DNA of 64,000 nt, taken from NCBI GenBank assembly GCA_949358305.1, contig OX442319.1, positions 13,516,001 through 13,580,000 on the forward strand, given 5' to 3'. Below the pieces are notes generated by a model that was not told the origin of the DNA, did not search any database, and worked only from the letters and a program-made list of their open reading frames with translations. The DNA is from Strigamia acuminata (taxonomy: Eukaryota; Arthropoda; Chilopoda; Geophilomorpha; Linotaeniidae). Each line of letters opens with the position of its first letter. The stretch's first letter is position 1. Below are positions 1,288 through 58,044 of the stretch, piece after piece. Made by a program: the position numbers and the translations under genes.

Positions 1288-2999
1288 ATGATGCTGAAGA
1301 TTTTTGCACTTCTGTCGGCATTAGTTTTGCTACTAATCGCCAGCGAAGACGGTGAGCCTGAGCCTGTTAACTGCAAAACTCTTTCAGTGAACTTATTCTC
1401 GGTAAGAATGTGTAATTTAAAAATCCAATTAAATTCACGCTTCAATAATTTTTGCAATATTAATAGCATAGGAAGTTGGTTAAAATATTCGCTGACATAA
1501 ACAGTCAACTTCAATCTGGAATGGAACCCATCACAATTGATGACATATTAAAAAAAGTGGATCTTTCTTTCGTTGACGGATCAACATACGCTGAAAATGT
1601 ACTCTTTACGAACATGATAATTGGCTCAAATACAAGTTTTTATACTCTATCTCACTACAAGGCTTTTATAGTCAAGGGTTCCCACTTGGAAGTAAAATAA
1701 AAAAAAAACTAATCAAAATTGAATGGCAAGACCTCGATCCAAAACAAGAACCAAAGTTGTTGGATCATCAAAATGGCGGCCATAAACTAGAACATGTGTG
1801 TTTTGAGTATCCTGATTGGCCAGAAGTAAGGTTGTCGCCTATTTCAAAACAAATTTGAAGATATGATCCAACAATTGGTTCATGTTCTGGATCGAGGTCT
1901 CGCAATTCAATTCTGATTGGTTCCTTACTACTTTATCTGAGCTTACTTTACTCCAAGTAGGAACCCACCATTGCGATGTGTAAAATTTAAAGTTACTTCA
2001 ATGTTAAATTTTGTATTTTTGCATTCACTTTTGCAGTTATAAAACAACCGCTTTATAATTAATTTAACCAATTAATTGAAAGTGTGAACACAAGAGTTTC
2101 TATCGCTTCGTGCGAATTATCGTCGGAACGTAGATTTACAACGTTAACCGATTTATCTTGGTTGTACAGTTGTAAATCAGCGGGCATCGGTCCTCTATCA
2201 ATCCGGTAAAACGGCCTGAAGGTGAGGTAATGACGCTCTTGCTGAAAGGTAAACTGTAACTGTAAGTGTCGTTTCCGGTCAGAACACAGGCTTATATATA
2301 AACCGAAAGTGACGCAATCTGCAAATCCTAACTGATTATGCAGTATCGCAGAAACGGAAACTAGCCAATCTAGTTCTATGGATTACTCTTAGCGTTGTAT
2401 TGGTTTACTAATGACTAGTAAACAGGATAGAATTCCATCTAATCACTTCTTGTGATCCGGAACATGGCATTAGCAAGCATTGGTTTTATAAATAAAAAAA
2501 GAAATTTGACAAATTTCAAACTTCAAACTTATTGCGATAATAAATGAAGAGAAAACTTGAAAAGAAACTTAATGTTTGACGATAAATTTATAAGACTTGT
2601 AACCACGGTCAAACCTGATATTTTTTACAACCCATTTATTCACATTTCTTTTAAACAAATCTTTATTTTTGTGAGTGTTGTGTTGAGTTGAGTTGAGGTT
2701 GTTCCTTGCGTTAAAATATATTTCTTTTTTAGACAAAAACTGTCATTGTCGATGCTCTAACAAAATGTATACCGGAAACGGTCGAAGCAGAAAAGGTACG
2801 GAGTTTGTAGTTTTAAAACTGTTTATCAATTTCTTTCAAAAACAGAAACCCGACACTTACCGTGAATGTGTGCGCAAAAAGTTATCTGAAGTAAGTAAAA
2901 GTGTTTAACGTACAGTATAAATTGTTAATTTTTTGCAATTTCAAATTTCTGCTTTAGGGTTATTGTCGAACCATATTATTCACAATCTCACCAGGCTAA
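1288..2999 (+). CDS. Small secreted four-cysteine protein, copy A
   Basis: Exons 1288-1401, 1467-1598, 2733-2795, 2846-2890 and 2958-2999 give 131 aa with every intron in phase 0. Exon 1 encodes a signal peptide (MMLKIFALLSALVLLLIAS) and the first Cys (PVNC). Exon 2 encodes an amphipathic stretch (SGMEPITIDDILKKVDLSF). Exon 3 holds LTKCIPETVEAEK, exon 4 YRECVRKKL and exon 5 GYC, so the mature protein has four Cys. The model is confirmed by copies B-E, which keep the same exon ends. Intron 2 (1.1 kb) contains a hairpin-forming block at 1709-1925 that also occurs in copies B-D. Splice sites are GTAAG/TTAATAG, GTACTC/TTTTAG, GTACGG/CAG and GTAAGT/TTTAG. The function is unknown. The pattern is weakly reminiscent of small helical ligand-binding proteins, but I cannot assign a family. 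Confidence 0.75.
1709..1925. repeat. Intronic inverted-repeat block conserved among copies A-D
   Basis: The left arm (CAAGACCTCGATCC...) and right arm (GGATCGAGGTCTCGCAATTC) are inverted copies of about 45-50 bp. Equivalent blocks lie in intron 2 of B (about 44705-44930), C (about 50797-50980) and D (about 54587-54765). It is either an old MITE inherited through the duplications or a retained structured intron element. Confidence 0.6.
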
Positions 3000-3101
3000 A
3001 GAAATGTCGACACATGATTAAACTTGTAACAACTAACGTTATTCAATTTTGTGCAAGTTAAAATTTATTAAACCACGCTTCGTGCCGAATACTCAGTCGT
3101 T

Positions 3102-3477
3102 TTATTTCCGCCACGTACTCTGTTCGGCGTGAATTTGCATTTCCACGCAAAACAAGCGTCGCATCGCTTGTTTTGTTTTTAAACCAGCAGTCCCTTGCGT
3201 AATGGCCTGTCTCGTGCCAATTATAGCATTCCACATTGCTTTTTCCGTATTCTCGTTGCCCTTTTGTCTCTCAAAAATCCTCACATTGTGCTCGAACTCT
3301 GAACGCAGTCCCTGTGCAACGTAGCAAACCAGTTCTTGGTTGGTAAAATTCCACTCCACACTTCACTATTTCAAAGTCGTTTTTTGGCCCCTTGTCGGAC
3401 TCGATGTTGTCCCAAAACTTCTTTGCGCTTGTTACGGTGCTGTACTGTACTAGGAATGGCTGCAGAGGAAAATGCAC
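3102..3477 (-). pseudogene. Degenerate copia-type Gag fragment
   Basis: Two overlapping minus-strand frames carry Gag-like pieces: AKKFWDNIESDKG upstream, then NQELVCYVAQGLRSEFEHNV in another frame. The second resembles the conserved ...L..GL..EFE..V region of UBN2/copia Gag proteins. A frameshift separates them and there is no start or zinc knuckle. It is a transposon relic, and the assignment rests on short motifs only. Confidence 0.35.
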
Positions 3478-3629
3478 CGAGACACTAAAATCCCCTAGAC
3501 AAACCTAAATAAAGCCAATAAGCAATAACCCTCGTGTCTTGTGTATTTTGTAGTTTTTTCATAGTGTGTGTTGCGTGCAGCGTCTCGTGGTCCTCCCATG
3601 ACCAAGTGGCATCCGTCCGAACACTCACA
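3478..3629 (+). mobile_element. LTR 3' end related to the 228-871 solo LTR
   Basis: This tract follows the end of the 228-871 LTR: AATAAAGCC, a GTGTGTGTTGCG tract, CGTGGTCCTCCCATGACCA, then CGTCCGAACACTCACA. It ends in CA at 3629. The 5' boundary could not be placed. 3630-3890 holds nothing else I can name apart from AT-rich sequence. Confidence 0.5.
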
Positions 3630-3891
3630 AGGTTGTGAAAATGTAAATGCACATCAGGGAGTTTTGCACATTATGCATGAAAACATTAGTATTTTGTATT
3701 TTTTTCCGACATGTTATGTTGCAGTTCATTTTTTGGCTCCAAAATTTTGCATTTTCATATTAAATTTTGGATTCGGCACTAGATTTTACATCACTAACAA
3801 TGCACCTGATAGAATCTCAAATCTACCCATCTCATTATATGACAAATTCAAATAATTAAAAAACAATGGTTTATTGTCCAATATAAACATT

Positions 3892-17300: not shown

Positions 17301-18103
17301 TAGTGAAATTATATGCTGTTTCAGCTGATTCTTGCAATTTTTAAATTATGCAATTGTAAGCTCAATTACCCAATTTTCAGCTCATATTGTGCTGTATTTA
17401 GCTCAATTTTGATGAACGAAATAAAAAAGTAAGCATAAACAAAGCATACCCTGTGTTGGGTCCGCTTCTTTTCACCGGCAACTCTCAAAAAATCCGTCGG
17501 TAACGAGCCCAGCATCATCGGACACCAGTTGCGCGCGCTCCGCAGCGGCCCGCTAGCCGCCTCCCCGACCGCTTCTTCCTTCTCCTCGCAAACCAACGAG
17601 CCGCCAATCTTATCCAAAGGATCAAACCGCAACAAATCCACAGCCCCGTCGCCCACAACATCCGCCGGCCCGTCTTCCGCCAACGCTTCTTTCCCACCGC
17701 TGGCGCTAACCTTCGGCGACAACGGCGGCGTATTCACATTGGGCACGGCCTGCTGATACGACGGCGGCGGAGTCGTCGGCGAGTAGCTCGGCGGCGATTC
17801 GGCGTTATCCGCCGCGTCCATTTCAGTTCTGAGTCGTTCGTTTTCATTGTCAATGCTCATGGTGAGCAGTTGGTCTATGGTGGCGTCGACGGCGCCTTGG
17901 TTCGCCCGGAGAACGGCTTCGATGACGTCTTCGTCCATTTCGGGGAACATGGTTTTGAAGTCGTGCATGGCTTGGCTGAATTCTAGCTGGGTGGCGTTCG
18001 GGGTCGCCGGCGGTTCGTCCTGCGACGGGGGCTGGTCTACAGCCGCCATTGTCCAGTTGCGGGAATTGATTATGAGTTTTCGAGCTGGCGGTCCAGCGGC
18101 CAT
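14366..18103 (-). CDS. CUEDC1: CUE domain-containing protein 1
   Basis: Six exons (17450-18103, 16353-16557, 16198-16251, 15073-15195, 14575-14644, 14366-14474) give 404 aa; human CUEDC1 has 386 aa. The CUE domain, residues about 40-83, has the ubiquitin-binding MFP motif (52-54) and the LL pair (79-80). PPSY and PPPSY motifs follow. Exon 2 encodes a charged helix (RYLEDERVALLLQNEEFVQE). Exons 4-5 encode FREKLKNMGK then RRKFAQLARIFSRRKKR, the conserved basic segment of the family. Exon 6 is an acidic tail (LLLEDDDDEDEDESGDD). CUEDC1 binds ubiquitin non-covalently and is proposed to act as an adaptor in protein turnover. An acceptor (GTTGACTAG) lies 8 bp before the ATG, so a 5' UTR exon further upstream is likely. 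Reading exon 4 through its donor would give a stop after 4 residues, which is a possible short isoform. Confidence 0.9.
14800..14990. repeat. Interspersed repeat R fragment, CUEDC1 intron 4
   Basis: It shares GGGGAGAACCATG, GGACACCATTCACGATTAAG and ATCTTTATTGC with the copies at 8.1 and 28.95 kb. No ORF of note. Confidence 0.6.
15605..16075. repeat. TTTAGACACAAAAATGCA minisatellite, CUEDC1 intron 3
   Basis: Units of about 20-21 bp (TTTTTAGACACAAAAATGCA and relatives) fill half of the intron. They produce artefactual reverse-strand ORFs (repeats of KKCFFVS). Confidence 0.9.
16558..17449. other. CUEDC1 intron 1, repeat-rich
   Basis: It contains degenerate sequence around 16680-17090 (imperfect GGTACC/GGTACTG repeats) and TTTAGCTGAATTT-type repeats at 17100-17400. 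I see no exon here. Confidence 0.5.
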
Positions 18104-23612: not shown

Positions 23613-26600
23613 TCATATATAACTCTCGTGATTCTGCTGCCACAAATCCAAACTAATCCGAACATTCGACCCCGACGGACTCGTATGTGCTCGTGTCCTC
23701 CGCGCTTCCACGCCCACACACTCGCGCGGCAACGACAACCTCGACCGATGCTTCCTCTCGCCCGTCTCCGAACACACCGAAGCCGATCTCGCGTGTCTCG
23801 CCGCTGCCGGCTGATGCAGTACATTCAAATAATAATTCGCCGTTGACGACGAACACGACGAAGAGGTCGACGGCGTCTCGTCCACCCCGTACCTCGCCGG
23901 CGACGCCGGACTGCTCAAACTGCTGCCAAAACTCGCCCGACTACTGCACGTCGTGCTGCCCAAACTGCCGCTATTCGCCCGCTCCGCCGACGCCCCGCCG
24001 ACCGCCGCGCCCGCTCGCTCCTCCGACGACGACGCGGCGATGGCTATGGGCTCGCTGACCACCGCTCCGCCGTCCTCCGTTCTACGCTTCAGTTTGTGTC
24101 CGGCTTTTCTCTTCCGCCCCATCTTCTCCTTCAACTCGCACAACGTCCGATCCAGCGAACTCGCTTTGTGTCCACCGCCCGCCTCCTCCGAACGAACGTT
24201 TTTGCCTCTCAGAAAGTTGTAGTCGAACGAACTCGAGTCGCTGCTCGTCAAACTGTCCGTCCGACCGTCAAAAGTTGGCGAAGAGCTGCTCGAAGACTCG
24301 CCGGCATCGCCCAACCAATCGCCGGCGCTGTAAGCACCCCTGTGGCGCCCCTCGGTGGTCAGAGGAACCTGCAGACTCCGCCGTTTGCAGTCGGCCGCCT
24401 CGTCGCCGCTCGGACGACGCCACGAGTCGAGGACGTCGCTGTACGAGCGTCTTTTTGCTCTCCCAAAATCCTCCCCACCAACGGCGCGCGCGTTTTCGTC
24501 GAAAGCCGCCAGGTTGCTGACCCGGTGCTCGGTCCAGCCGCCGGCGTCCTCGTACTTGGCGTCGGCGCGCAACACCAGGTCCTCGTTGAGGTTGAGCTCG
24601 CTCTGCGAGCTCAGACTGGACATGCTGCCCACTACGTTCATGCGGTGTTGCGGCAGCGAAGGGTTGCCGTCTTCGCTGCGGACGGTCTCCTGGCCTAGGT
24701 CGTTCATTTCGAAGTTGTTGGCATGCAGGGAGACGCTGCTGAGGCTGGGGAGGCGGATGGGGAGGCCGGTGGCGGGGGTGCACACGTGGGGGGTTAGAGG
24801 TGGGGCGGGGTAGTTGGTGACGGCTTCGTAAGGCGGCGGGGCTTCACCTTGCGGGAAGTAGGATTCCGGGGGCTTCCAGAAGGTGTAAGGCGGAGGGGGG
24901 TCTTCGAAGAAGCCAAAGTCCACGTGATCGCGGTCGCGGAAGTAGCCAACGGTGTTGTCGTCGTCGGTGGTGAAGCGGTGGTTGGGGCACGGCCCGCGAC
25001 TTAGGTGGTTGTTGTTGATACCTGGGGAGGTGGATGGTGGTTGAGGTTAAGCTGCATGGGGGCAGTTGGTTTGCGAACAGTTTGGTTTTTGGCAGATGGC
25101 GTAGTGGCGGCGTAGTGACCGTCAATTTCAGGGCCAGCTCTCTGTAGGATCGTGCAGGGCAGCCGTACCAGGCGCATGTATACAAACTAGACTTTTGACC
25201 GATACCGGTATCGGCTATCGGCTGATATTTCGGTATTCACCGATATCGAATCCGATATTTTTTTGCGTGGCCGACACCGATATTGCCAAGTTACAAACAC
25301 CATACAAAATCTTAAACGGGCTTTGTTAGGTACTGATCGAGCTTGAGCCGGGCCTGCCAAATCTTCTCAAATTTCTCAGTTAAAATGGGAAATTGTGAAT
25401 CAAGAGATCGAAAGATCGATCGTTTTTATTTCTTTTATTTTTGGTGTCGCCAAAATATTGTTTGCTTGCTTCTTGCCAAACTGATCGCAAATTGTCATGA
25501 CAATTTTAATTTGATCTTACGTCTAATCATGAGTAGCAGTCGCCTTTGCCTCAACCTGTGGATCATGAATAAGAGCAAAGCCAGGACGAGAAACGATGTG
25601 ACCGTGCTGGCTACCAACCGCAATCCGAGATTGGCCGTGTTTAAACCGCCATTTTCTGAAAATAAAAACTCAAATTTAATTTCTAATATCACCAGAAAAA
25701 TACAAATTTATAAACTAAAACAAAGACCTTCCTTGAGTCTAAAAAAATATTTTAAAATTTATCATTTTTTCACATAATTAGTCCAATTTTCTGTCTACAA
25801 ATGACATTTTTAACCCAACAGCAGCATTTATTGTCTACAAAATGCAATTTTGGTCTAAAAATTGAATTTTTTTTGGTCTAAAAAGTGTATTTTTGGTCTA
25901 AAAAGTGTATTTTTGGTCTAAAAAGTGTATTTATGGTCTAAAAAGTGTATTTTTGGTCTAAAAAGTGTATTTTTGGTCTAAAAAGTGTATTTTTGGTCTA
26001 AAAAGTGTAAAGTGCGTAATTGCATAAATAATTTAACGTCACCTTTGGTTCCTATAGTCGTGACATTAGATAATGGAGGGACATCTGAGTCGACTCCATT
26101 TTTGCACATAAATTCACAACATTTGTCGTCTGCCAGCTGGGAATTGAGGCAGTCCTTTGGCGGTGAGCAAAGTATGGCGGTGCACATTTCCGCTTGTCCA
26201 TTCTGGCAGGTGCACGTGGTGCACGGGTCGTAACCCAATGGAATGAACCGTTGCCCGCTCGTCACCACTTCCTTCTTGAAATTTGTGCAATTGCTCTTAA
26301 CCATGGCTGAAATCAACAAACCAAACACGATTCATTATATTTTATAATATTAAAATAAATAAAAACACTCCGTAATAAATAATAATCACAAAATGCATGA
26401 AATTAATGTTAAATTTATACAAATCCACTGTGGAAATGCACAAAATGCATCAAAAATCATCTGAATTATTATTGAACGTACAATAATTTAACCAGTGCCC
26501 ACAGTGCACCAAAATTTACGTTAAATCATTTAAAATATTTAAAAATGCATAAAATTGCATCAAATTTAACACAAACTCACTCCAAATGTCACCAATATTC

Positions 26601-28143: not shown

Positions 28144-28833
28144 ATGATGAAATACCTCGCATTTCTCCAGTATCTACTTCTCCAGTTCACCGTGACGTCA
28201 TCGATCGACTGCGATGACGTCATACGGCGTGCCACCAACTGGGCCGAGCGCGCAATCCCCTACTCCATGACCGCAACCACCACGGCACCGGACGGTGCAC
28301 GGTACCGCACCGACTGCAGCGGATACGTTTCGATGGCGTGGAAACTACCGTCCAGTTTGACCACCGTCACATTACCGAGCGTAGCCAATAAAATAGCGAA
28401 GGACGATTTACGCCGAGGGGATATCATCTTGAAAGGTCCTCCAAAACCCGGCCAGGTCGGCCACGTGGTCATTTTCGAGAGATGGGCCACCGACAATCGC
28501 AATTCGTACTGGGGATATGAACAGACACCGCCGAAAACCATTCACCGGATCATCAGTTACCCCTATTTCGGTCGGAGTGGGTATGTCCCATTTCGGTTTA
28601 AAAGCATCACATGCACTGGTGCTGGTACTGGCAGTACTGGTGGCTCTGCTGGGTGTTCCTGCTGCAAGGGAAATGCGCTGGGAGAGTTCTGCGGACACGA
28701 GTTGTGTGGGAATTGTTTGGCTAATAATATTTACGGTTGTAATGTGAAGGATGCGTCGCCGTCGATCCAGTATGGCGCTTGCTCGAAAGGGTGCACCGGG
28801 TCGAGTAATTCGCGTGCAAAATGCAATAAATGA
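28144..28833 (+). CDS. Secreted NlpC/P60-type hydrolase with Cys-rich tail
   Basis: A single uninterrupted exon encodes 229 aa. Residues 1-20 form a signal peptide (LAFLQYLLLQFTV core). Residues 22-150 match the NlpC/P60 papain-like fold of bacterial cell-wall endopeptidases: catalytic Cys58 in TDCSGYVSMAW, then the LRRGDIIL turn and His107 in GQVGHVVIF; a polar third residue may be Glu126. Residues 157-229 are a Gly/Ser linker plus a tail with eleven Cys (CSCC, FCGHELCGNC, CSKGC). The likely role is extracellular cleavage of peptidoglycan stem peptides in defence or digestion, inferred from family. An AATAAA signal lies at 28848. The bacterial-type domain and lack of introns, in a region where other genes have many, suggest ancient horizontal acquisition. 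The tail is eukaryote-like. Confidence 0.85.
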   Translation: MMKYLAFLQYLLLQFTVTSSIDCDDVIRRATNWAERAIPYSMTATTTAPDGARYRTDCSGYVSMAWKLPSSLTTVTLPSVANKIAKDDLRRGDIILKGPPKPGQVGHVVIFERWATDNRNSYWGYEQTPPKTIHRIISYPYFGRSGYVPFRFKSITCTGAGTGSTGGSAGCSCCKGNALGEFCGHELCGNCLANNIYGCNVKDASPSIQYGACSKGCTGSSNSRAKCNK

Positions 28834-29581: not shown

Positions 29582-32500
29582 ATGACGGATTCAACGACGA
29601 AAATCCGCAACCAGATAGAATTGTTACACGACGGTAACTATTTGCTGTGGTCCAAACGAGTAAAGGCCGCACTCAATGAACGAGATTTGTGGGACACCGC
29701 GATCGAAGAGACGGAGCCCAAACGACCAGTTAAGGGAGAGGCGACCCACGATGAGGACGAGAAAACGTGGAAAACGTGGCGGAAGAGCAACAACGCCGCG
29801 AAGGGAATACTGATCGGAACCCTAAACGATGAGCAGGTACTACGTTACGACGACGCATTAACCGCTAAACAACTTTGGGACGACATAAAGAAAAATATGG
29901 AGATCGATACAACAGATCTCCAGTACGAGTGCTTGGACGAGTTGCTGCGCCTCAAAATGACCGCGAAAGAGACAATAGACCAGTACGTAAACCGAGTCGA
30001 GGCACTGAGAACTAAATGCGCCTCGTACGGAGGGGATATAAAGGAAACTCAGGCCAAATACGCGATATTAAGGGGATTGCGAGAAGAATTCGACGCCACG
30101 GCCGAGGGCATCAGAGCAAATAAAACGACTACACTACAAGATGCGCGAAAAATTTTGAGATCACGTGAAACGCAGAACAACATAAAAATCGAAGGAAGCG
30201 CGGACGTCGCGTACAGAGCGGATGGCCGGAAGAAGTTTGAAAAACGTGAAGTCACGAGGAAGTGTTATAATTGTAACAAACCTGGACACATGGCGAGTGA
30301 TTGCAAAAACCCAATTTTCTGCTTCAACTGCGAAGGGAGCGGGCACAAGGCGTCAGCTTGCACAAAACCAAAGAGAGAGAGAACGAATACCAAACGTGCC
30401 ACATTCAAGCGGAACCTGGAACCCGAAGGAAACTTGTGCGCGACTGAAATTTCGACACCTACGGAAGCCGTGAGGAAAGAATATCGATTCCCAAGATCCG
30501 ACGACGGCAATACGTGGAGCGGCGCTGACGGACGCACGTGGCACGACGCCGATGAACAAAAAGAAGAATGCCACATCGTGGACGACAATGAGAAGAGCGA
30601 AGACGACGACGCGGAGAAGGAAAACGATGATGCGGAGGACGAAGACGACGATACGTGGAACAACGACGATGATAGAAGAAGAGATAAAATCCGATTCAGA
30701 TTTAACGTTTTTGGCGATTATGAAATAGACGACGAATATGATCCAGATTACGAAGAAGACGATGACGAATTTGAAGAGAACGACGAAGAAATTGGCGAGA
30801 CGAACGTAAAAATTGACGAGACGAACGTAAAAATTGGCGAGACGAACGTAAAAATTGGCGAGACGAACGTAAAAATTGACGAGACGAACGTAAAAATTGG
30901 CGAGACGAACGTAAAAATTGACGAGACGAACGTAAAAATTGGCGAGACGAACGTAAAAATTGGCGAGACAAACGTAAAAATCATCGAGAAAAACGAAGAA
31001 TCGGATGATTTTGAAAACAAGAATGCCAAACTTGATTCAAAACGAGCGGACATTGCTGCGGAGCGAGCGGAAGTAGATGCGAAACTAGAAGAAATTAATG
31101 CAAAGTTAGCAAAGCTTGACGAGAAACTTGGCGAATTCGACGTAAAAGAAGCTAGATTGGATGCGAAATTGGCTAGATTTGTCGTAAAATTACAAGAGTC
31201 TGACGTAAACGAGTTGAATGAATCGGTACCGTGCAGAAAAACGCAAGTCGGGAATTTTTTCGAAACAAAACCAGACGAGTCCGATGCGAAATTAAACAAG
31301 TTTAAAGCGGAGATTTCCGAATTCGATGCGCAACACAAGTCGACACCTGAAGTAGATCCTGATGCTTTACTCGGAAACGACGAATCCGTGACCGAAAATC
31401 AAGAGGAGAACGAGGAACGAAATGTAAAATTCGACGAGAACGAGTTGGGCGCGCCGATGCTACGCAGTGAAGCCGATACCGCGAAGCAACCCGAATACAC
31501 CGACTTGGAGATCGAATCTGAAATCAAGACGAGTTCTGACGAAGAAAAATTCAAGCACGCAGATGAAAATGACGAAATAATAGACGGGAATCGAGAGGAG
31601 AACGCGCAAGATGAAATCCAAAGCGACGAGGAAGCCGAACCGCTACCGCCCACTCAACGACGCGCGCCGAGAGCCACGATGGCAGAGTGCCAAGTTCAAA
31701 ATCTCGCAGAAAAAACGGCGAGCGAAGAAGAACTAATGCGAATAAAATCAAGAGCGATGGCCAACGTATCGGAAGAAATCGAACCCTACTACGACGAAAT
31801 GGAACCGATTAAATCCGAGGAGTGGATGGACGAGGAGATGAAGTTGATGTCAAAACAATTTCGGAGTGCGAAGAAAGCCGTGAATTCGATCGAGTCTTGG
31901 GGACGAATGAAGAAGATAGAAGACAAGATCGAGACCGAGCGTGAACAAGTTACAAGTTCAATGGCCAGTATTTCGAAAGGGATCGAAGCGGTACACTCGA
32001 TTGGTTCCGACAGGGTTGGGCCGAGTTCGAACGAAAATCAAGTGTGCAATTACAAAGTAAACAACGGTGAGAGGAGTGACGACGACTGCGACACATGGAG
32101 CAAGGACGTACGCACGAGGAGCGACTTGGGAAGTGAAAGGGTCGAATCCAACGCAAAGCACGACGTTTTGGACGCAGAATACAAGATCGAGCGCGACGAC
32201 AATCAAAAACGTAGTAAATTCGTGCTTGACCAAGATGGGCCCGACGACAAGACACAAGACGAGTTTAATGCGGGATTGGATAGACTCGACAAAATTTCCA
32301 AGAACGATGGAGAAGGACGCGATTTACAAGCTGCAAGCCTGGAAGAGAAGATCGGTGCAGACTTACAAAGTTCAAAGTACGATGGAATCGGCGTGAGACA
32401 CGACGAAGATGGTGGGAATTACGATTCGGTCAAATTGCTCCTACACGAAGAAAGCAAACGCGAAATTTTCGAGAGCAAAGACGTGACCCCAAATGGTAAA

Positions 32501-32722
32501 ATCAGAACGAATCGCAAAAAGAAGAAAAAACGCAGACGCCGAAAATACGGGAAAACACCGATAGTCGACAACAGCCACGAGGAAAGCGCGAATCACGAAA
32601 AGAAAGCTGTGCGGAGTAAGACAGAAGATTTTATTACAAAAATAAAAAACCAGCAAGGGAATGCGAAGAAGTTTTCGAACGCGGATGGCAAGATTGAGAG
32701 GAATCGAATTTGTAAAGTGTAA
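29582..32722 (+). CDS. gag: Copia-type Gag polyprotein with long acidic extension
   Basis: 1046 aa. Residues 1-195 match the UBN2/DUF4219 capsid-like Gag of copia elements (LLHDGNYLLWSKRVKAAL; ...LWDDIKKN...; LLRLKMTAKETIDQYVNRVE). Two CCHC zinc knuckles follow: Cys228-Cys231-His236-Cys241 and Cys247-Cys250-His255-Cys260. Residues about 320-1046 have no enzymatic motif: a very acidic stretch (ENDDAEDEDDDTWNND), a 7-residue repeat of the type ETNVKIG/D (21-bp units, 30780-30980), long charged coiled-coil-like segments, and a basic C-terminal patch (NRKKKKKRRRRKYG) that could act as a nuclear signal. Where copia has protease and integrase there is only this low-complexity domain. The frame is intact from ATG to TAA. 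The role is packaging of element RNA; the tail function is unknown. Confidence 0.9.
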   Translation: MTDSTTKIRNQIELLHDGNYLLWSKRVKAALNERDLWDTAIEETEPKRPVKGEATHDEDEKTWKTWRKSNNAAKGILIGTLNDEQVLRYDDALTAKQLWDDIKKNMEIDTTDLQYECLDELLRLKMTAKETIDQYVNRVEALRTKCASYGGDIKETQAKYAILRGLREEFDATAEGIRANKTTTLQDARKILRSRETQNNIKIEGSADVAYRADGRKKFEKREVTRKCYNCNKPGHMASDCKNPIFCFNCEGSGHKASACTKPKRERTNTKRATFKRNLEPEGNLCATEISTPTEAVRKEYRFPRSDDGNTWSGADGRTWHDADEQKEECHIVDDNEKSEDDDAEKENDDAEDEDDDTWNNDDDRRRDKIRFRFNVFGDYEIDDEYDPDYEEDDDEFEENDEEIGETNVKIDETNVKIGETNVKIGETNVKIDETNVKIGETNVKIDETNVKIGETNVKIGETNVKIIEKNEESDDFENKNAKLDSKRADIAAERAEVDAKLEEINAKLAKLDEKLGEFDVKEARLDAKLARFVVKLQESDVNELNESVPCRKTQVGNFFETKPDESDAKLNKFKAEISEFDAQHKSTPEVDPDALLGNDESVTENQEENEERNVKFDENELGAPMLRSEADTAKQPEYTDLEIESEIKTSSDEEKFKHADENDEIIDGNREENAQDEIQSDEEAEPLPPTQRRAPRATMAECQVQNLAEKTASEEELMRIKSRAMANVSEEIEPYYDEMEPIKSEEWMDEEMKLMSKQFRSAKKAVNSIESWGRMKKIEDKIETEREQVTSSMASISKGIEAVHSIGSDRVGPSSNENQVCNYKVNNGERSDDDCDTWSKDVRTRSDLGSERVESNAKHDVLDAEYKIERDDNQKRSKFVLDQDGPDDKTQDEFNAGLDRLDKISKNDGEGRDLQAASLEEKIGADLQSSKYDGIGVRHDEDGGNYDSVKLLLHEESKREIFESKDVTPNGKIRTNRKKKKKRRRRKYGKTPIVDNSHEESANHEKKAVRSKTEDFITKIKNQQGNAKKFSNADGKIERNRICKV

Positions 32723-32983: not shown

Positions 32984-32988
32984 CTTAT

Positions 32989-33480: not shown

Positions 33481-33562
33481 GGTAAAAGCTAAATCGAAAT
33501 TGTACACAAAATGAGACTAATGGCTAATTCATTGACTACGGTGTGTGTTTAGATTGAAGCGG

Positions 33563-34470
33563 ATGATGATGACGATTGGTGTGTTTCTGGTTTTGTCCGT
33601 AGTCGCCGTCGCTGGCAATGTGCTGGAATTTGAGCCTGACGAAGCGGGCTGCGATGAGGTCAAAGTAAGGGATTTCTTTTAGAAAAATTGAATTTAGAGT
33701 TCCATAATTCGTGTTAATTATTTAGAAAATACTTAGCAGTACTCCGGAAGTATTCATGCAGATGAAAATCCCGAAAGCAGACAGTAATTATCCAGACGAA
33801 TTCGTAAGGAAGGAATTGTCGCCTCTTTTTCAGAATGTCTCAGTAAGTATTTGCAGCACACTCACTTCAGGCGGGAGTGACTTGACTAGACATTCAAGCA
33901 GTTGGAAATGTGGGAATTAGTTGGAAATGCAGCCAAATAGTTGGAAATTAATGTGTTCTTCAGTCCGGAATCCGGATATGGATCGATTCAAGAAGCAGCC
34001 ATTGCTTAGTTGAAATTTTATATAATAAGATAGGTGGCGTTACGAGTGCGTACGCGTCACAAATTAACAAGATTTAAACATGGAGTCAGAACACTCCAGA
34101 AATCTAGCAAAATAGTAGAAAATCTTGGAAATCAGTAGGAAATGTAGGAAATGTAGGAAAGCAGTAGGATTATCCATTCTAGTTGTAACATTTTTTTCTC
34201 ATTTTAGACAGCGGACGAATTTATTCGTATTCTACTTGATTGTAGTCTGGTTATGCCACCCACTCAATATTTGGTATGAAATTTGACATTTTTTAAACCG
34301 TTTTATATTCTATTGATTTAAAAAAAAATTATGAATAAAATAGATTGAAGAAATGTGTGCCATGGATATGATTCGAGAGGTAAGTAAAAACTGCTGAAGA
34401 TTAGATTCCATTTTAATTCCATCACTCTGTTATTCAGGTTTGTTCCAAGAACCGTAAAAAATGCACATGA
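33563..34470 (+). CDS. Small secreted four-cysteine protein, copy F
   Basis: Exons 33563-33664, 33726-33842, 34208-34273, 34344-34379 and 34438-34470 give 117 aa, all introns in phase 0. Signal peptide MTIGVFLVLSVVAVAG; Cys in EAGCDEVK (exon 1), LLDCSLVMPP (exon 3), EEMCAMDM (exon 4) and VCSKNRKKC (exon 5, with one extra Cys). Exon count, phases, lengths and Cys placement parallel copies A-E although residue identity is low, so I infer a second subfamily. A 5' UTR intron (donor GATTAAG/GTAAAA at about 33480, acceptor GTGTTTAG at 33552) is probable. The upstream block CTCAAAGATCTCTATTCGAT is repeated before gene G. Function unknown. Confidence 0.75.
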
Positions 34471-35041
34471 ATATATTATTATAGGTTGAAAAGACTATTG
34501 TATTTATTTTTTTTGTTAAGATATACGTGTTAATAAACCTATTGCATTTGAAATCAAACTTTCTGTAACGTAACCGGTGGAGGGGTGTATGAAAGTTGGT
34601 CCGAAACCACAGAAACGCTCGTAAATCGATCTGTAAAATTATATAAGTTTGTAGAGGGAGGCCAGGCGTTTCTTTTTCCGTAAAAAAATCCAGGAAATGA
34701 TGATTTCTTCGCGTCAAAAACGACGAAAAACGACACAAAGATGGCGGAAAGCCTTTGATTTAAGTTTCTATAGCAAGCAGTATTTCAGAATTGAATTGTT
34801 GTGGTTTAAGCTATAATTTCTAATTCATAAATGCAAGAATGCGCATTGTACAATTGTAAAACTGTATTGTTGGGTTGGTTACCGTTGACAACCGAGAAAG
34901 AATAAATTAGTAGTGGTCTCAAAGATCTCTATTCGATTAAGGTAAAACCTAAATCGAAATTGTGCACAAAATGAGACTAATGGCTAATTCATTGACTACT
35001 GTGTGTGTTTAGATTGCAGGAGATTAAACTGGTTGAAGTGG

Positions 35042-35210
35042 ATGATGATGATTGGTGTGCTTTTGGTGTTGTCAGTAGTCGCCGGCGATGTGGAGGTGGA
35101 GGAATTTAAGCCTAACCAAGCGGACTGCGATGAGGTCAAAGTAAGGGATTGATTTCTTTTAGGAAAGAAAGTTTGGTTTGGGAATTTGGGTGTTTGTGCA
35201 ACAACTGAAT

Positions 35211-35241
<31 letters not shown>

Positions 35242-35922
35242 GAAAATACTTTCTAGTACTCCGGAAGTATTCATGCAGCTGAAAGTCCCTGAAGAAGATA
35301 AAGATGATCCATACGAATTCGTAAGGGAGGAATTGTTGGATCTTTTTAAAGATATCTCGGTAAGTGTGTACGGTGGAGAACACTCACTTGTGCAGCGGCG
35401 AGACTACGGTTGACATTCAAGCAGAACAAATCAGTAAGACATTTAACAAATTAGTAAGAAATTTAACAAATCAATAAGAAATCTAGGAAATTCGTAGGAA
35501 ATCTAGGAAATTCGTAGGAAATCTATAGAAAATCTAGGAAATCTATAGAAAATCTATAGAAAATCTATAGAAAATCTAGGAAATCTATAGAAAATCTAGG
35601 AAATCTATAGAAAATCTATAGAAAATCTAGGAAATCTATAGAAAATCTGGGAAATCTATAGAAAATCTAGGAAATCAGTAAGGAGTTGCTAGGAAATCTA
35701 AGAAATCAGTAGGAAATCTTGCAAATCCGTATGAAACCTAGCAAACCGGTAGGAAATCCGTGAGAAATCCATTGTTGTACTAACGTATTTTTCCTATTTT
35801 AGACGGCGGAAGAATTTATTTCTATTCTAATTGATTGTACCGGTAGTTTTGTTGCGCCACCCACCAAATATTTGGTAGGAATAAAATTGAAGTTTCTCAA
35901 CTGTTTTATATCTTATCAATTA

Positions 35923-35953
<31 letters not shown>

Positions 35954-36070
35954 GCAGATTGACGAAGTTTGTGTCATGATTAAGGTTCGAGAAGTAAGTA
36001 CAACGTTGAAGATTACATTTCATTTTAATTCCATTACTCTGTTATTCAGGTTTGTCCCAAGATACGATAA
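35042..36070 (+). CDS. Small secreted four-cysteine protein, copy G
   Basis: Exons 35042-35140, 35243-35359, 35803-35874, 35958-35993 and 36050-36070 give 114 aa, all introns in phase 0. It is a tandem duplicate of copy F (offset about 1.48 kb, upstream and downstream flanks included). Signal peptide MMIGVLLVLSVVAGDV; Cys in QADCDEVK, LIDCTGSF, DEVCVMIK and VCPKIR. Exon 2 is closely similar to copy F (KILSSTPEVFMQLKVP). Exon 3 has a two-codon insertion relative to F, and the C-terminus is three residues shorter. Intron 2 holds a 20-bp minisatellite. Like F, it has a probable 5' UTR intron ending GTGTTTAG before ATTGCAGGAG. Confidence 0.75.
35440..35780. repeat. 20-bp minisatellite AAATCTATAGAAAATCTAGG, gene G intron 2
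   Basis: Present in gene G; a much shorter trace (AATCTAGCAAAATAGTAG, GGAAATGTAGGAAATG) lies in intron 2 of F, so it expanded after the duplication. Confidence 0.9.
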
Positions 36071-44323: not shown

Positions 44324-45729
44324 TTAAACGTTGGAACAATAAACCTGAAACAGAAATTTGAAATTGCAAACAAAGAAAAAAATCATACGTTAAACGCTTT
44401 TACGTACTTCAATCAAATTTTTGCGCAGGCATTGACGGTAAGTGTTAGGTTTCTGTTTTTGAAAGAAATTGATAAAATATAAAATAGTTTTAAAACTACA
44501 AACTCCGTACCTTTTCTGCTTCGACCGTTTCCGGTATACATTTTGTTAGAGCATCGACAATTACACTTTTTGTCTGAAATAGAAATATACTTTAACGCAA
44601 GGAACCACCTTAATTCAACCAACTCAACTCAACTCAACACAACACTCACAAAAATAAATATTTGTTTTAGAGTTTTTTTAGTATGTTTATATTTGTTTGA
44701 AAACTAATAAGGAACCAATCAGAATTGAATTGCGAGACCTCGACCCTGAACATGAACAAAGTTGTTGGATCATCTTCAAATTTGTTTTGAAATAGGCGAC
44801 AACCTTACATCCGGCCAATCAAAAGAATCAAAACACACATGTTCTAGTTTATGGCTGCCATTTTGATGATCCAACAACGTTGGTTCTTGTTCTGGATCGA
44901 GGTCTTGCCATTCAATTTTGATTGGTTTTTTTTTTTTATACTTTACTTCCAAGTGGGAAACCTTGACTATAAAAACCTTGTAGTGAGTTAGAGTATAGAA
45001 ACTTGGATTTGGGGCCATCCATAAATGGCTGATTTTACGATTTTTAGACCCCCTCCCCCCCCTTGTAACAAGGTTGTAACAAATCCACAAACCCCCCCTA
45101 GAATATTAATATTACGTAATAAAACTCACTACCCCCCCCCCCCAAAATAAAAATAAAAATTTTTACACAAATTTAAAATTTTTTACAAAAATTTAAAAAA
45201 AATTTTAAAAATTTTCACAAAAATTTAAAAAAATTTAAAAAAATTTCAAAAAATTTCAAAAATGTTAAAATAAATTTTGTTACGTAACATTATTAAGACC
45301 CCCCCCCCCCTCCCCGTCGTAACAAACCGTAACAAAATTTGAAACCCCCTCCCCCCCCCCCTCCAGGCGTTACGTAATTTATAGACGGCCCCTTTGAGTC
45401 AATTATCTCGTTCGTAAAGTGTACCTTTTCAGCCTTATCTGATTTGTCAACAAAAGAAAGATCCACTTTTTTTAATATGTCATCAATTGTGAGTTCCATT
45501 CCAGATTGAAGATCTTTGTTTATGCCAGCGAGTATTGTCGTAAACTGCTTCTTCTATTAATATTGCAAAAATTGTTGAAGCGTGAATTTGATTGGATTTT
45601 TAAATTACACATTCTTACCCCCAAAAAATCCATTAAAATAATTTTGCAGTTAACTTCAGGCTCAATTTCATCACTGGCGATTATTAGCAAAACTAATGCA
45701 GATAGAACTGTAAAAATCTTCAGCATCAT
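44324..45729 (-). CDS. Small secreted four-cysteine protein, copy B
   Basis: Exons 45619-45729, 45425-45553, 44511-44573, 44408-44452 and 44324-44344 give 122 aa, all introns in phase 0. Signal peptide MMLKIFTVLSALVLLIIAS; Cys in EVNCKII, LTKCIPETVEAEK, YRQCLRKNL and VYC. Exon 3 differs from copy A at one residue (TKSVIVDAL). The short last exon ends the protein at YCSNV. Intron 2 carries the conserved hairpin block and a later insertion (45011-45392) of a GGGGCC-ended element. An AATAAAG polyadenylation signal lies on the minus strand at about 44213, conserved downstream of C and D. Promoter landmarks: TATA at about 45815-45820 and CTAAAGATT repeats at 45855-45898. Confidence 0.75.
45011..45392. 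mobile_element. MITE with GGGGCCGTCCATAAATTACG-type ends, in gene B intron 2
   Basis: The left end GGGGCCATCCATAAAT and the right end TTTATAGACGGCCCC are inverted. The interior has runs of C and AAAATTTAAAA. A fuller relative lies at 52866-53183 and a truncated one at about 50720-50793. Relative to copies C and D it is a clean insertion in ...GTATTTGAGTC. Confidence 0.7.
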
Positions 45730-48881: not shown

Positions 48882-48963
48882 GCAGTTTCTAATCATTTAT
48901 ATTTGTCCCAGTTGTTGGTTAATTGGTTTTATAATTGATTAGTTTCGTAACTATGGAAATGCA

Positions 48964-50204: not shown

Positions 50205-51401
50205 TCAGGTGGCGTAATTACCGGTCCAACGGCTATTAGTGTTTATTTCCATTCTAGAGAATTCATATAAACAATAATCCTGAAACATAAATTTTAAATT
50301 TTAAAAAAGAAAAAAATTATACGTTAAACACTTTACTTACGATAAGGAAATGTTTGCGCAGGCATTCACGGTAAGTGTTAGATTTCTGTTTTTGAAAGAA
50401 ATTGATAAAATATAAAACAGTTTTAAAACAACAAACTCTGTACCTTTTCCGCTTCGACCGTTTCCTGTATACATTTTGTTAGAGCATCGACAATTACACT
50501 TTTTGTCTGAAATAGAAATATACTTTAACGTAAGGCTTTAACTCAACTCAACACTCACAAAAATAAAGATTTGTTTAAAATAAATTTGAATCAATGGGTT
50601 GTGAAAAGTATCAGGTTTTACCGCGACGTCGTAATATGGGCTAATATTCGTATTCCAAAAATCATATAAAAAATTACTATATTTTAATTATTTAAAATTT
50701 AAATTTTTTTTTTTTACATGGAAGGTAACAAAATTTGAAACCCCCTTCTCCCCCCCCCCCTTGGTGCGTTACATAATTTATGGACAGCCCCTAAAGAACC
50801 AATCAGAATTGAATTACAAGACCTCGATCCAGAACATAAACCAAGTTGACGACAAAATTACATTCGGCCAATCAGGAGCGACTTCAACACACGTGTTCTA
50901 GTTTATGGCCGCCATTTTGATGATCCCACAACTTTGGTTCTTGTTCTGGATCGAGGTCTTGCCATTCAATTTTGATTGGTTTTTTTTTTTTTTACTTTAC
51001 TTCCAAGTGGGAAACCTTGACTATAAAAACCTTGTAGTGAGTCAGAGTGTAGAAACTTGTATTTGAGTCAATTATCTCGTTCGTAAAGTGTACCTTTTCA
51101 GCCTTTTCTGATTTGTCAACAAAAGAAAGATCCAATTTGTTTAATATGTCATCAATTGTGAGTTCCATTCCAGATTGAAGTTTATCGTTTATTTCAGGCA
51201 ACATTTTCTTAATCTGCTTCCGCTATTAATATTGCAAAAGATATTGAAGCGTGAATTTAATTGGATTTTTAAATTATACATTCTTACAATGAAAAAGCTC
51301 AATAAAACAATTCCGCAGTCAACTCCATTCTTTCTTCTTTCTTTGCTAGCGATTACTAGCAAAATTAATGCAGATAGGACTACAAAAATCTTCAGCGTCA
51401 T
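50205..51401 (-). CDS. Small secreted four-cysteine protein, copy C
   Basis: Exons 51288-51401, 51094-51222, 50444-50506, 50341-50385 and 50205-50279 give 141 aa, all introns in phase 0. Signal peptide MTLKIFVVLSALILLVIAS followed by a basic KERRKNG, then Cys in GVDCGIV, LTKCIQETVEAEK, YRECLRKH and DYC. Compared with the other copies, the last exon is extended (YCLYEFSRMEINTNSRW...) because the stop codon is shifted. Intron 2 has the hairpin block and a fragment of the GGGGCC element. CTAAAGATT motifs lie at 51528-51562, TATA at about 51490. Function unknown. Confidence 0.75.
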
Positions 51402-51789
51402 GGTTTCAATTTGTGTATACACTAGGAGACAAGATGTATTAGTAAACGAACAGTAAAGCTCCGAATAAACGCCGAGGCATTTAATTTTCTTATACCCTAT
51501 TTTCTTAAACACCTATTTCGACCCACGCGAATCTTTAGCAAGTCTTTAGCGAATCTTTAATCTTATCACTGTGAGTGAGCTATTTAAACTTCGTAAGACC
51601 CCTTAGTTAAATATAATGGATGATGTGGCAACTAATGGCAACATATGGCAGAAAAAACTACTCTTTCAGAGTTCAGGAAGCATATGTTGGGACAAATATT
51701 ATTTGTATTATGATTAGACATTATTAAGTAATATCTATGATTATTAGCGCGTGATGTATTGATCTGTCAATCATGGAGTATACAGGAGA

Positions 51790-51948
51790 ACACTCAACGC
51801 CAAGCTTAAAAAGGTTGGATTTACTCGATTATTGGTAGAACCTTGTGTGTATTTATATAGAAGAAGGGAACAAGTCATTATAATGGCAGTTTATGTTGAT
51901 GACTTGCCAGTAATAACAAATGCTATTGACTTATTGGATTCTGCGTAG
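51790..51948 (+). pseudogene. Ty1/copia reverse transcriptase fragment (YVDD box)
   Basis: A 52-codon frame reads NAKLKKVGFTRL, then VEPCVYLYRRREQVIIMAVY and VDDLPVITN, the copia RT region around the catalytic YVDD. It stops at TAG (51946). Flanks on both sides are duplication-unit sequence, so a short piece of a copia element was captured here. Confidence 0.75.
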
Positions 51949-54070: not shown

Positions 54071-54187
54071 CTTCATCCACTTATTAAGATAGTTTTTCTT
54101 TATTGCACAAATAAGTTGTTTACAAGCTATTCATAAGTTATTTGGCTGATTTAGGCGCTAGCAGGTGGTGTAATTGATCGTTCATGA

Positions 54188-55961
54188 TTAAAATGCGTAG
54201 TTTATTGAGAGATTTGAACAATAAACCTGAAACAGAAATTTGAAATTGCAAACAAAGAAAAAAAATCATACGTTAAACACTTTTACGTACGTCAACCAAA
54301 TTTTTGCGCAGGCATTGACGGTAAGTGTCACGTCTCTGTTTTTGAAAGAAATTGAGAAAATATGAAACAGTTTTAAAACTACAAACTCCGTACCTTTTCT
54401 GCTTCGACCGTTTCCGGTATACATTTTGTTAGAGCATCGACAATTACTTTTTTTGTCTGAAATAGAAATATACTTTAACGCAAGGAACAACCTCAACTCA
54501 ACTCACCACAACACTCACAAAAATAAAGATTTGTTTTAGAGTTTTTAAATGCAGCTAGTATGTTTATATTTGTTTGAAAAGTAATAAGGAACCTCTCAGA
54601 ATTGAATTGCGAGACCTCGATCCTGAACATGAACCAAGTTGTTGGATCATCTTCAAAACACTCAAAACACACACGTTCTAATTTATGGCCGCCATTTTGA
54701 TGATTCAACAACTTTGGTTCTTGTTCTGGATCGAGGTCTTGCCATTCAATTTTGATTGGTTTTCTTTTTTTTTACTTTCGTACTTCCAAGTGGGAACCCT
54801 CGACTATAAAAGCCTTGTAGTGAGTTATACAGGGTGGACAAAAAGTATGGTTCACAGTAAATAATTCCCAAACTGTTCTAGATGTTGATTCAGCAAAATG
54901 ACTGTAAAGGTAGTATGTCGGGGGAAATCCAATTATGACATCCAATTTGACCTCTGAGGTCATCTTCAAGGTCATCCATATTGTAACTCGAGAACCGTGA
55001 CAGATAGAGCAAAAATGTGAATTAGAAAGTTGTAGAGCACCATCCAATTAGTCTAGAACTGTTCTTAAAAAAATTATTTCTTACTGAAAAGTTTTGAGAA
55101 AAAAGGTCTGAAACATTAGTCTACTCAGCTTTATAACCTAAAAGTATCATGTTGGAATGTATTTCCAAAATAAATTATTTCTTTTCTTTTGTGTTTCCTC
55201 TCTTCCACTTACAAGTATGACCGAATAAGGTGTCCTAATTGAGGATTAGCTTGGTTGCCTCAATAGTTTTAGGTTACAAAGCTGAGTTACAATGCTGAGT
55301 AGACTAATGTTTCAGACCTTTTTTCTCAAAACTTTTCAGTAAGAAATAATTTTTTTAAGAACAGTTCTAGACTAATTGGATGATGCTCTACAACTTTCTA
55401 ATTCACTTTTTTGCTCTACCTGTCACGGTTCTCGAGTTACAATATTGATGACCTTGAAGATGACCTCAGAGGTCAAATTGGATGTCATAATTGGATTTCC
55501 CCCAACATACTACCCTTACAATCATTTTGCTGAATCAACATCTAGAACAGTTTGGGAATTATTTACTGTGAACCATACTTTTTGTCCACCCTGTATATGA
55601 GTTAGAGTGTAGAAACTTGTATTTGAGTCAATTATCTCGTTCGTAAAGTTTACCTTTTCATCCTTTTCTGATTTGCCAATGAAAGAAAGATCCACTTTGT
55701 TTAGTATGTCATCAATTGTGAGGTCCTTTCCAGATTGAAGGTCCTTGTTTATGCCATCGAGTATTGTCTTAAACTGCTTGTTCTATTAATATTGCACAAA
55801 TTATTGAAGCGTGAATTTGATTGGATTTTTAAATTACACATTCTTACCCCCAAAAACTCAATTAAAATTATTTTGCAGTTAAATTCAGGCTCAGGCTCAT
55901 CGTCTTCGCTGGCGATTACTAGCAAAACTAATGCAGATAGAAGTGCAAAAATCTTCAGCAT
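54188..55961 (-). CDS. Small secreted four-cysteine protein, copy D
   Basis: Exons 55848-55961, 55654-55782, 54394-54456, 54291-54335 and 54188-54226 give 129 aa, all introns in phase 0. Signal peptide MLKIFALLSALVLLVIAS; Cys in EFNCKII, LTKCIPETVEAEK, YRQCLRKNL and VYC. The first of the two Met codons seen in A and B has become GTG, so translation must start at the second. Exon 2 differs most (SGKDLTIDDILNKVDLSFIG). Intron 2 contains the hairpin block and, as a later insertion, the 772-bp fold-back element at 54826-55597. Two CTAAAGATT cores lie upstream (about 56090-56113). Confidence 0.75.
54826..55597. mobile_element. 772-bp fold-back element in gene D intron 2
   Basis: Inverted arms of about 310 bp with ends TATACAGGGTGGAC and GTCCACCCTGTATA, flanked by the direct repeat TGAGT (54821-54825 and 55598-55602). 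Removing the element and one repeat restores the sequence of copies B and C exactly (GTAGTGAGTTAGAGT). No transposase seen; mobilised by another element. Confidence 0.88.
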
Positions 55962-57222
55962 CACGGCTTCAATTTGTATAGACTAGGAGACAAGATGTAT
56001 TAGTGAACGAACAGTAAAGCTCCAAATAAACGCCGAGGCATTTAATTTTTTATACCCTACTTTCTCTGACACCTATTTGGACCCAGGCGAATCTTTAGCA
56101 AATCTTTAGTCTTATTACTTTGGGTCTGCTATTTAAACTTCGTATAAACCCTTAGTTAAATATAATGATGTGGCAACTAATGGCAACATATGGCAGAAAA
56201 AACTCCTCATTCAGAGTTGAAGAAGCATTTGTTGAGACAAATATTATTTGTATTATGATTAGACATTATTAAGTAATATCTATGATTATTAGCGCGTGAT
56301 GTATTGATCTGTCAATCATGGAGTATACGGAAGAATGTGGAAATCTTTTTGGCCGAGAGCTACATTTTCGCATTGTGAGCAGTGTTATCGGTTAACATTT
56401 AGGCTTACCTTTAATTAAATTGCTGATTGCGGTTTCAACGTTGCGAAACGAGCTTCTTGTGGAAAGATAATTCTGCGTAGCCTATATTTAAATATCACTG
56501 AATTTCATTGTGTTCCTTATTGACAATAAAAGTTAATTAGCAAATGGTTTAAGTATTGAATGCACACTTTTATTGCAGTGGAGAAAAAAAGTATTTACTT
56601 TTTATAAATATAAATAAATTAGAAGTGCAATTTTAATATTTCTAATAATTATTATTATAAATTATAAATTATAAATTTTGTTATTTATTTCTACGTTGAA
56701 AATGTCTTTAAGTTGTCAGTGATTTTCTAGTTATTTATCAATAAATTTAATTTTAATTTGCTATCAGAATTATTTACAAATTTCCACGCGCCCTCTTGCG
56801 GCGTATTGGCGGACAGAGAAAACAAATAAATATTCAATCAACCATGATTATGGTTGATTGAATTTTTAACGACTGCATTGCTCTTAAATTTAGAAGTAAA
56901 AACGTTTCTTAAAATTAACGTCAAAGCCGAAACAAAATTTAATTTTTTAATATTAAATAATTAAAGGAACATTTTTTAAAATATTGCTTTAGAAAAAATT
57001 GCGGCCATTTCTATTTTTCTCAAACAATCAGTCCCTTTGTCCTGGCATTCAGTTAACGCCATCTGGTGATTAAGATTGTACACATTAGCCCTATTGGCTG
57101 AAAAAACACCACGGAAAATGGTACTTTAAACGGAGTATTTATTTATTTATTTATTTATTTATTTCTGCTAAAATTGAATAACCTTAGTTGTTTCAAGTTC
57201 AATCAAAGATGTCTGCGTCTCT

Positions 57223-58044
57223 TTAAGCAGAAACAAGTCCTGCCAAATAGCTTGTGCAAAATTTCTGAAACGGAATTTCAAATTGTGAAAAAAAGAAATC
57301 AAATGTTAAACAGTTTTGCTTACTTTATACAAATTGTCGGATAGGCATTTGCGGTAAGCTTTAGGATTCTGTTTTCGAAAGAAATTGATAAAACAAAACT
57401 AAAAACCGTTTTAAAACTACAAACTCCATCCATACCTTTTCTCCTTCGACTGTTTTCTGTATACATGTTGACAGAGCAGCTACAATTACAATTTCCGTCT
57501 GAAAAAAGAAGAGTACTTTAGAACGAGGATGGAAAACAAAGCGGACAACGAACAACTCAAAACAATACAACGCCGTCAATGGCGGCCTCAATTTACGAGT
57601 CAGTAACAGTCGCAATCATCAGATGGCGCGACTGTCGACTCATAAATACACATCGTAAGAAGAGTGAATAATGTCGGCCCCTTGACCAGCAACGTGTATT
57701 TGAGTGAATTATCGTGTTTGGTAAGTGAACCTTTTTAGACCTTTCAGCCGTTTCAGAATATTTGTCAATAAAAGAAAGATCCAGTTGACTTAATACGTCC
57801 TCACTTGTGAGTACTTCTCCATCCTGAAGTTGGTTGTTTATTTCAGTAAATTTGGCCCGGAACTCGTCGTTCTAATGATAAGCAACAATTATCGAATCAT
57901 AAACCTAAAACATATTTTTGCATTGTACATTCCTACTTGGAGGAAAGCGTCAACAACAAGTTCGCAGTCGACTCCATTGTCTTTTGTGAGATTGTCGACT
58001 ACTGTTTGTAAAAGTAAGAGTGATGCAACGATCGTCAAGATCAT
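57223..58044 (-). CDS. Small secreted four-cysteine protein, copy E
   Basis: Exons 57937-58044, 57731-57871, 57436-57498, 57324-57368 and 57223-57264 give 132 aa, all introns in phase 0. The most diverged of the A-E group: signal peptide MILTIVASLLLLQTVV; Cys in GVDCELV, LSTCIQKTVEGEK, YRKCLSDNL and FC. Exon 2 is four codons longer (YSETAERSKK end). The compact introns lack the hairpin block and the fold-back insertions, so E may keep the ancestral gene form. The exon 2 donor (AAAAAG/GTTCAC) is weak. I did not find the CTAAAGATT array upstream. Confidence 0.7.

Follow-up and report, generated by a model that had tools for sequence, protein, structure and literature searches.

Insect odorant-binding proteins (OBPs; PF01395) resemble, in size, secretion and helical content, the seven predicted proteins, A to G, that are encoded in a 64,000-base-pair (bp) stretch of the genome of the centipede Strigamia acuminata (C8:13516001-13580000, here called the window) and are the subject of this study. 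Among non-insect OBPs, the mite proteins VdesOBP1 and the TurtOBPs pair their cysteines (Cys) C1-C6, C2-C3 and C4-C5 (PMC8222343; PMC8269058), and chemosensory proteins (CSPs; OS-D family, PF03392) are described as helical, about 110-120 amino acids (aa) long, with four Cys and bridges Cys1-Cys2 and Cys3-Cys4 between close Cys (PMC12940638). For S. maritima, of the same genus, the genome paper gives no OBPs and two CSPs (PMC4244043), OBP-like members found later are cited in PMC5638865, and PMC6878950 describes the venom as containing the private peptide families GEOTX1 and GEOTX2, which have no recognised relatives. Set beside these systems, A-G appear to be a new, so far orphan family, in which the coding pieces of at least four genes (A-D) have diverged at two to three times the pace of their introns.

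Seven neighbouring gene models with five coding exons each were located and all 35 coding exons were placed exactly. The models, which are predictions from sequence, are as follows (window positions, exons in coding order).

1288..2999, + strand: gene A, 131 aa; exons 1288-1401, 1467-1598, 2733-2795, 2846-2890, 2958-2999; GT-AG introns in phase 0
33563..34470, + strand: gene F, 117 aa, five Cys; exons 33563-33664, 33726-33842, 34208-34273, 34344-34379, 34438-34470
35042..36070, + strand: gene G, 114 aa; exons 35042-35140, 35243-35359, 35803-35874, 35958-35993, 36050-36070
44324..45729, - strand: gene B, 122 aa; exons 45619-45729, 45425-45553, 44511-44573, 44408-44452, 44324-44344
50205..51401, - strand: gene C, 141 aa; exons 51288-51401, 51094-51222, 50444-50506, 50341-50385, 50205-50279
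54188..55961, - strand: gene D, 129 aa; exons 55848-55961, 55654-55782, 54394-54456, 54291-54335, 54188-54226
57223..58044, - strand: gene E, 132 aa; exons 57937-58044, 57731-57871, 57436-57498, 57324-57368, 57223-57264

All 28 introns are GT-AG and in phase 0; intron 2, at 232-1197 bp, is the longest in every gene, the remaining introns measure 50-102 bp, and the length of intron 1 is exactly 65 bp in all five A-E copies. Every copy carries one Cys each in exons 1, 3, 4 and 5, and F has a fifth. The positions are 29/94/111/121 in A, 28/92/109/119 in B, 29/93/110/120 in C and D, 27/95/112/122 in E, 30/85/100/109/116 in F and 29/84/101/110 in G, so that the four Cys of the plan are spaced 55-68, 15-17 and 9-10 residues apart. 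The N-termini, judged by eye, are hydrophobic and signal-peptide-like. The sequence-only reading had proposed this five-exon, phase-0 plan with its Cys layout, lengths of 114-141 aa and a secreted look, and all of these were borne out, with the proviso that exons were chosen as open stretches, so that the absence of internal stops is partly built in. Exons of 6-47 codons defeat open reading frame (ORF) finding, and genes of this type are easily overlooked. Intron 2 of D also houses, at 54826-55597, a DNA element whose inverted repeats, 312 bp long, are 97% alike.

The evidence that carries our interpretation comes from setting exons against the noncoding DNA of the same genes, here introns 1, 3 and 4 together with 110 bp of upstream promoter sequence. 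Pairwise differences among A-D amount to 7.9-23.1% at codon positions 1 and 2 and to 15.7-24.0% at third positions, compared with 3.4-8.5% in the noncoding set, and in all six pairs both classes of coding site are the faster ones (one-sided Fisher p 0.019 to 2e-6 for positions 1 and 2, and 7e-4 to 2e-5 for third positions). The six pairs are not independent, but the contrast is nonetheless stronger than any single codon-test p-value. The four pairs with E point in the same direction, their exons being 73-75% identical versus 82% for their introns (p 0.009-0.036). Exon 3, which had been called almost invariant, differs at 2-4 of its 63 sites among A-D, within the range of the introns and promoters; it is not specially conserved but simply unaccelerated, keeping pace with noncoding DNA, where most of the other mature protein is accelerated. 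Venom, mating and immune genes are known for tandem families whose exons outrun their introns, and the acceleration in A-D and E hints at an evolutionary arms race.

Codon maximum-likelihood tests on A-D (nine partitions; best topology (A,C),(B,D)) gave a ratio of nonsynonymous to synonymous rates (dN/dS, omega) of 2.66 for mature exon 1 and exon 2 combined, with a nominal p of 0.010 that is the best of the nine. Exon 2 alone (43 codons) reached 2.86 (p 0.047), mature exon 1 (17 codons) 3.42 (p 0.055), the mature protein minus exon 3 1.70 (p 0.066) and exon 4 1.82 (p 0.36), and the signal peptide stood at 1.01 (p 0.99), exon 3 at 0.47 (p 0.42) and the first six codons of exon 5 at an unreliable 0.29 (p 0.10). 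Pairwise Nei-Gojobori omega was 1.07-1.36 in five of the six A-D pairs. Diversifying pressure, suspected by the sequence-only reading, is thus supported by dN/dS by exon as well as by the pace of exons relative to introns.

The explanation we favour, though we hold it at slightly less than even confidence, is that of a young, tandemly duplicated and so far orphan family of small secreted proteins of a geophilomorph centipede, diversified by selection, with introns that have been homogenised. The proteins would most likely act outside the cell and bind something itself variable, such as prey, a microbe, a mate or a ligand target, and duplicate copies would be retained because of their differences. 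The core in exon 3 changes no faster than noncoding DNA, with variation at both tails of the chain and in exons 2 and 4, and gene conversion would probably keep introns and promoters alike, selection removing those conversions that homogenise exons. Here we infer secretion, the disulphide pairing, the whole-protein fold, gene conversion, a binding function and expression of A-G. Several results weigh against this explanation. Omega over all codons is 1.46 (p 0.115), the best p of 0.010 fails a ninefold correction, pairwise omega is 0.70 for B-D, 0.56-0.74 in pairs with E and 0.82 for F-G, and the divergence of F-G exons does not significantly exceed that of F-G introns (p 0.27); when B, E and G were scanned for hydrophobic moment, moreover, 2, 0 and 2 windows reached the 2% level, which lends no support to regular amphipathic helices. 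In addition, third positions also outrun introns, and selection on amino acids alone therefore cannot account for the exon-intron contrast; raised third positions together with low intron divergence would fit a process in which gene conversion evens out the noncoding DNA and selection maintains the differences between exons.

The same figures can be read without positive selection, the introns and promoters of A-D being homogenised by conversion or constrained and the exons relaxed and near-neutral. Such a history would explain why third positions change about as fast as positions 1 and 2 or faster, why omega over the whole protein is indistinguishable from 1, and why intron 1 has kept its 65 bp throughout A-E, but it fits less well with the gap in omega between exons 1-2 (2.7-2.9) and exon 3 (0.47), a contrast of nominal significance only, and with the retention of the four plan Cys in all seven copies; we consider it unlikely.

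How far A-G form one family, as had been claimed, depends on the evidence consulted. On their sequences A-E are certainly paralogues, their exons matching one another with E down to 5e-25 (tblastn), and F and G are 65% identical. Between the two groups, protein similarity with Cys held fixed exceeded all shuffles in exon 1, which is mostly signal peptide, and did not stand out from shuffles in exons 2-5 (p 0.84, 0.23, 0.46 and 0.62); the sum including exon 1 gave p 0.02. With Cys left free, p was 0.002 for the sum, 0.042 for exon 3 and 0.052 for exon 4. What would join F and G to A-E is gene architecture and a short leader block of E, and hardly protein similarity. Given the shared five phase-0 exons, an exon 3 whose residue 12 is Cys in every gene, the long intron 2 and the leader block, common descent is likely, though not proven: the shared plan and the leader similarity to E favour the single family, and the scant protein similarity does not.

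This leader block lies within 130 bp upstream of the ATG and is common to E and F (0 of 500 shuffles as good) and, with p 0.004, to G and E; the other eight of ten pairs between F or G and A-E, all of them with A-D, were not significant in this comparison. A wider comparison over 1.1 kb upstream had preceded it, in which neither F-E nor G-E beat 30 shuffles and F-D alone did (40 vs 30), far from the ATG; since the 130-bp test followed a look at these results, the leader argument is post hoc and position-based. A relative of the E leader region occurs in D, at least about 430 bp before its ATG. The block shared by E, F and G resembles the donor site of a leader exon that would be untranslated, and the following upstream features were annotated.

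58065..58125, - strand: putative 5' leader intron of E (donor after 58126, acceptor before 58064), perhaps with an untranslated exon 0; read by eye from the sequence, in a stretch similar to F and G
33482..33552, + strand: putative 5' leader intron of F, read by eye from the sequence, with similarity to E in the 130 bp upstream of the ATG (0 of 500 shuffles)
34942..35012, + strand: putative 5' leader intron of G, read by eye from the sequence, with similarity to E (p 0.004)
1195..1204, + strand: TATA-like element about 90 bp upstream of the ATG of A, read from the sequence, with a presumed function

GTATAA elements like that of A also precede B, C and D. A 22-bp tandem array (10.5 copies, 99% matches) at 933-1163 ends 125 bp upstream of the ATG of A, short remnants of its motif are visible by eye upstream of B-D, and more of the repeat unit lies in the 10 kb flanking the window on the left.

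Searches for relatives agreed with the impression from sequence that no known family is recognisable. In Pfam, none of the seven members had a match above a cut-off, and a profile search of the PDB returned two matches with E 0.47 and 1.1, nothing credible. The protein database was queried with the seven-row alignment, for which 7992 candidates were scored and none reached E 1, and, as the single-sequence query, with residues 20-122 of B, which gave three candidates, none at E 10, and no orthologue. The same database returned 19 proteins for a VdesOBP1 query and therefore does contain arthropod proteins. Weak matches were discarded: DUF5725 (PF18992) scored 17.1 bits against a cut-off of 26.7 and in A only, and the best three of six families (DUF5725, YlzJ and PET191) had E 0.0044-0.013, these and the other weak Pfam matches lying below the cut-off wherever one is shown. 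In the whole genome (237,517,015 bp, 157 contigs), word-based searches with B and G, which remoter copies would escape, found matches confined to the exons of the window with two marginal exceptions, C3:33393625 (E 6.06) and C4:14114642 (E 1.82), both apparently chance matches with no second exon recognisable nearby by eye, and the 10 kb on each side of the window held no credible further copy (best E 0.61). A-G thus appear to be a new orphan family, so far without a relative and with close copies limited to the window at the sensitivity used.

With the non-insect OBPs VdesOBP1 (PDB 7NYJ, 7NZA) and TurtOBP1-4, A-G have in common that they are small, secreted and at least partly helical, with Cys placed close to both ends of the mature chain and low identity between paralogues. 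Our comparison set comprised 13 chelicerate rows of one orthologous group, among them an incomplete, misassigned row (P0018), with six Cys spaced 20, 27, 43, 21-22 and 9 residues apart. A-G depart from this six-Cys plan, with four Cys in A-E and G and five in F. The last two Cys are 9 apart in all 13 rows and 9 in F and G but 10 in A-E, weak evidence when taken alone, the penultimate gap is 21-22 in the rows (21-25 in TurtOBP1-4; PMC8269058) versus 15-17 in A-G, and the distance from C1 to the next shared Cys is 90 versus 55-68, or 22-35 residues shorter. Aligned by hhalign with the chelicerate rows, A-E reached a probability of 0.3% and A-G one of 0.5%, both profiles being thin (effective sequence number, Neff, about 2). 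Cys-anchored residue similarity to these OBPs, computed for B, E, F and G with 300 shuffles, gave a nominal p of 0.023 for B and likewise 0.023 for E, and was not above shuffles for F (p 0.53) and G (p 0.17).

Differing from insect OBPs in the spacing of their four Cys, all seven proteins also failed to match PBP_GOBP (PF01395), even at E 10, and the whole genome gave a single sub-threshold match to this family (E 0.136). VdesOBP1 itself scores 19 bits under a cut-off of 22, and a missing Pfam match therefore counts little against an OBP identity; a VdesOBP1 search of the S. acuminata genome, made without a positive control, found nothing. CSPs are alike in having four Cys and in size and helicity, but Cys1 and Cys2 are 55-68 apart in A-G, and on this spacing together with 0 of 7 OS-D matches we reject a CSP identity. 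As a control, OS-D in the same kind of genome search gave three matches flagged over the cut-off (L041, L042 and L043), one of which passes only with its neighbours and one of which has three stops. For exon 2 of B, modelled by AlphaFold in isolation from an alignment with exon 2 of A, C, D and E, three helices were predicted, at residues 2-16, 23-29 and 33-40 (mean predicted local distance difference test score, pLDDT, 74.7), to be set beside the five-helix fold of non-insect OBPs. Each mature protein probably consists of short helices bundled together and held by two disulphide bonds, which would be C1-C4, joining the chain ends, and C2-C3, between the last two helices. As six Cys and profile similarity both fail, we do not file A-G as OBPs, although they may function like them; the odour-related role raised among others by the sequence-only reading drew no support from the profile comparison and is neither shown nor excluded.

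Reduced non-insect OBPs nevertheless deserve to be weighed, an idea that overlaps with the diversified orphan family favoured above. Loss of the self-contained C2-C3 bridge from the pairing described for VdesOBP1 and the TurtOBPs (PMC8222343; PMC8269058) would leave C1-C6 and C4-C5, four Cys as could be present in A-G, in proteins carrying hydrophobic ligands in sensilla or other fluids. The final Cys gap, the Cys-anchored similarity of B and E, the helical model of exon 2, the small weight of the failed Pfam test and the OBP-like members of S. maritima cited in PMC5638865 all speak for it, and it is opposed by the very low profile-profile probabilities, the lack of similarity in F and G, the shortened distance after C1, the absent PBP_GOBP matches and the report, in PMC4244043, of S. 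maritima without OBPs; on balance it seems to us unlikely, if a serious contender. We give much the same weight to effectors of the venom gland or another gland, lineage-restricted secreted proteins in an arms race, comparable to venom genes whose copies diversify with KA/KS above 1. In its favour are omega values exceeding 1 in exons 1-2 and coding sequence that outpaces the introns, and, according to PMC6062510, the major venom families of the habu snake are accelerated and their non-venom paralogues are not. GEOTX1 and GEOTX2, likened to A-G by description, are lineage-restricted secreted families of the same genus (PMC6878950), but a conclusion cited there holds that centipede venom proteins are slow and under purifying selection, and the B search found no relative although the protein database seems to include transcript assemblies. 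Reproductive proteins, from semen or the spermatophore, or immune proteins would leave the same signature of selection, the driving force being sexual conflict or microbes, and fly seminal proteins include several OBPs (PMC10834028); no Pfam family matches above a cut-off, and we regard this option as slightly less likely again. More doubtful still is a combined history in which a geophilomorph-restricted family arose from a non-insect OBP fold, lost C2-C3 and was co-opted to an arms race in venom or mating, conversion homogenising introns and promoters and exons being driven apart. The probabilities we attach to these readings share ground, and their total is not one. Venom, mating or immune roles are indicated by the selection pattern no less than an OBP role.

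The surroundings of the genes yielded further observations. On the + strand, 28144-28833 holds an ORF of 229 aa in a single exon; its product looks secreted, matches NlpC/P60 below threshold (E 0.0016; 18.8 bits vs a cut-off of 23) and might conceivably be of horizontal origin. Also on the + strand, 29582-32722 is an ORF for a Copia-type gag protein of 1046 aa that has zinc knuckles and whose acidic tail is long and repetitive. The - strand carries an ORF with a CUE domain (17366-18103; E 1.3e-14) and another with sub-threshold VWC and pacifastin-like matches (25978-26328). Many tandem arrays of differing units, with periods of about 20-21 bp or multiples, occur in 7287-42016 (102 rows in the whole window). 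Elsewhere in the genome, a COX1-like fragment (L036, C8:11426194-11426376; 32.9 bits vs a cut-off of 34.8) with one TGA and one TAG lies in a nuclear chromosome and may derive from mitochondrial DNA copied into the nucleus. The assembly also yields 54 matches to Chitin_bind_4 (E 0.001 or better), as expected for an arthropod, and on the mitochondrial contig trnL(taa) immediately precedes nad1, a non-pancrustacean state.

If A-G are expressed in the forcipule gland or in the gonads, they would provide a compact seven-gene system for studying arms-race evolution in myriapods, and an OBP-like fold, if they have it, would make them relevant to the loss, retention and reuse of that fold in land arthropods.

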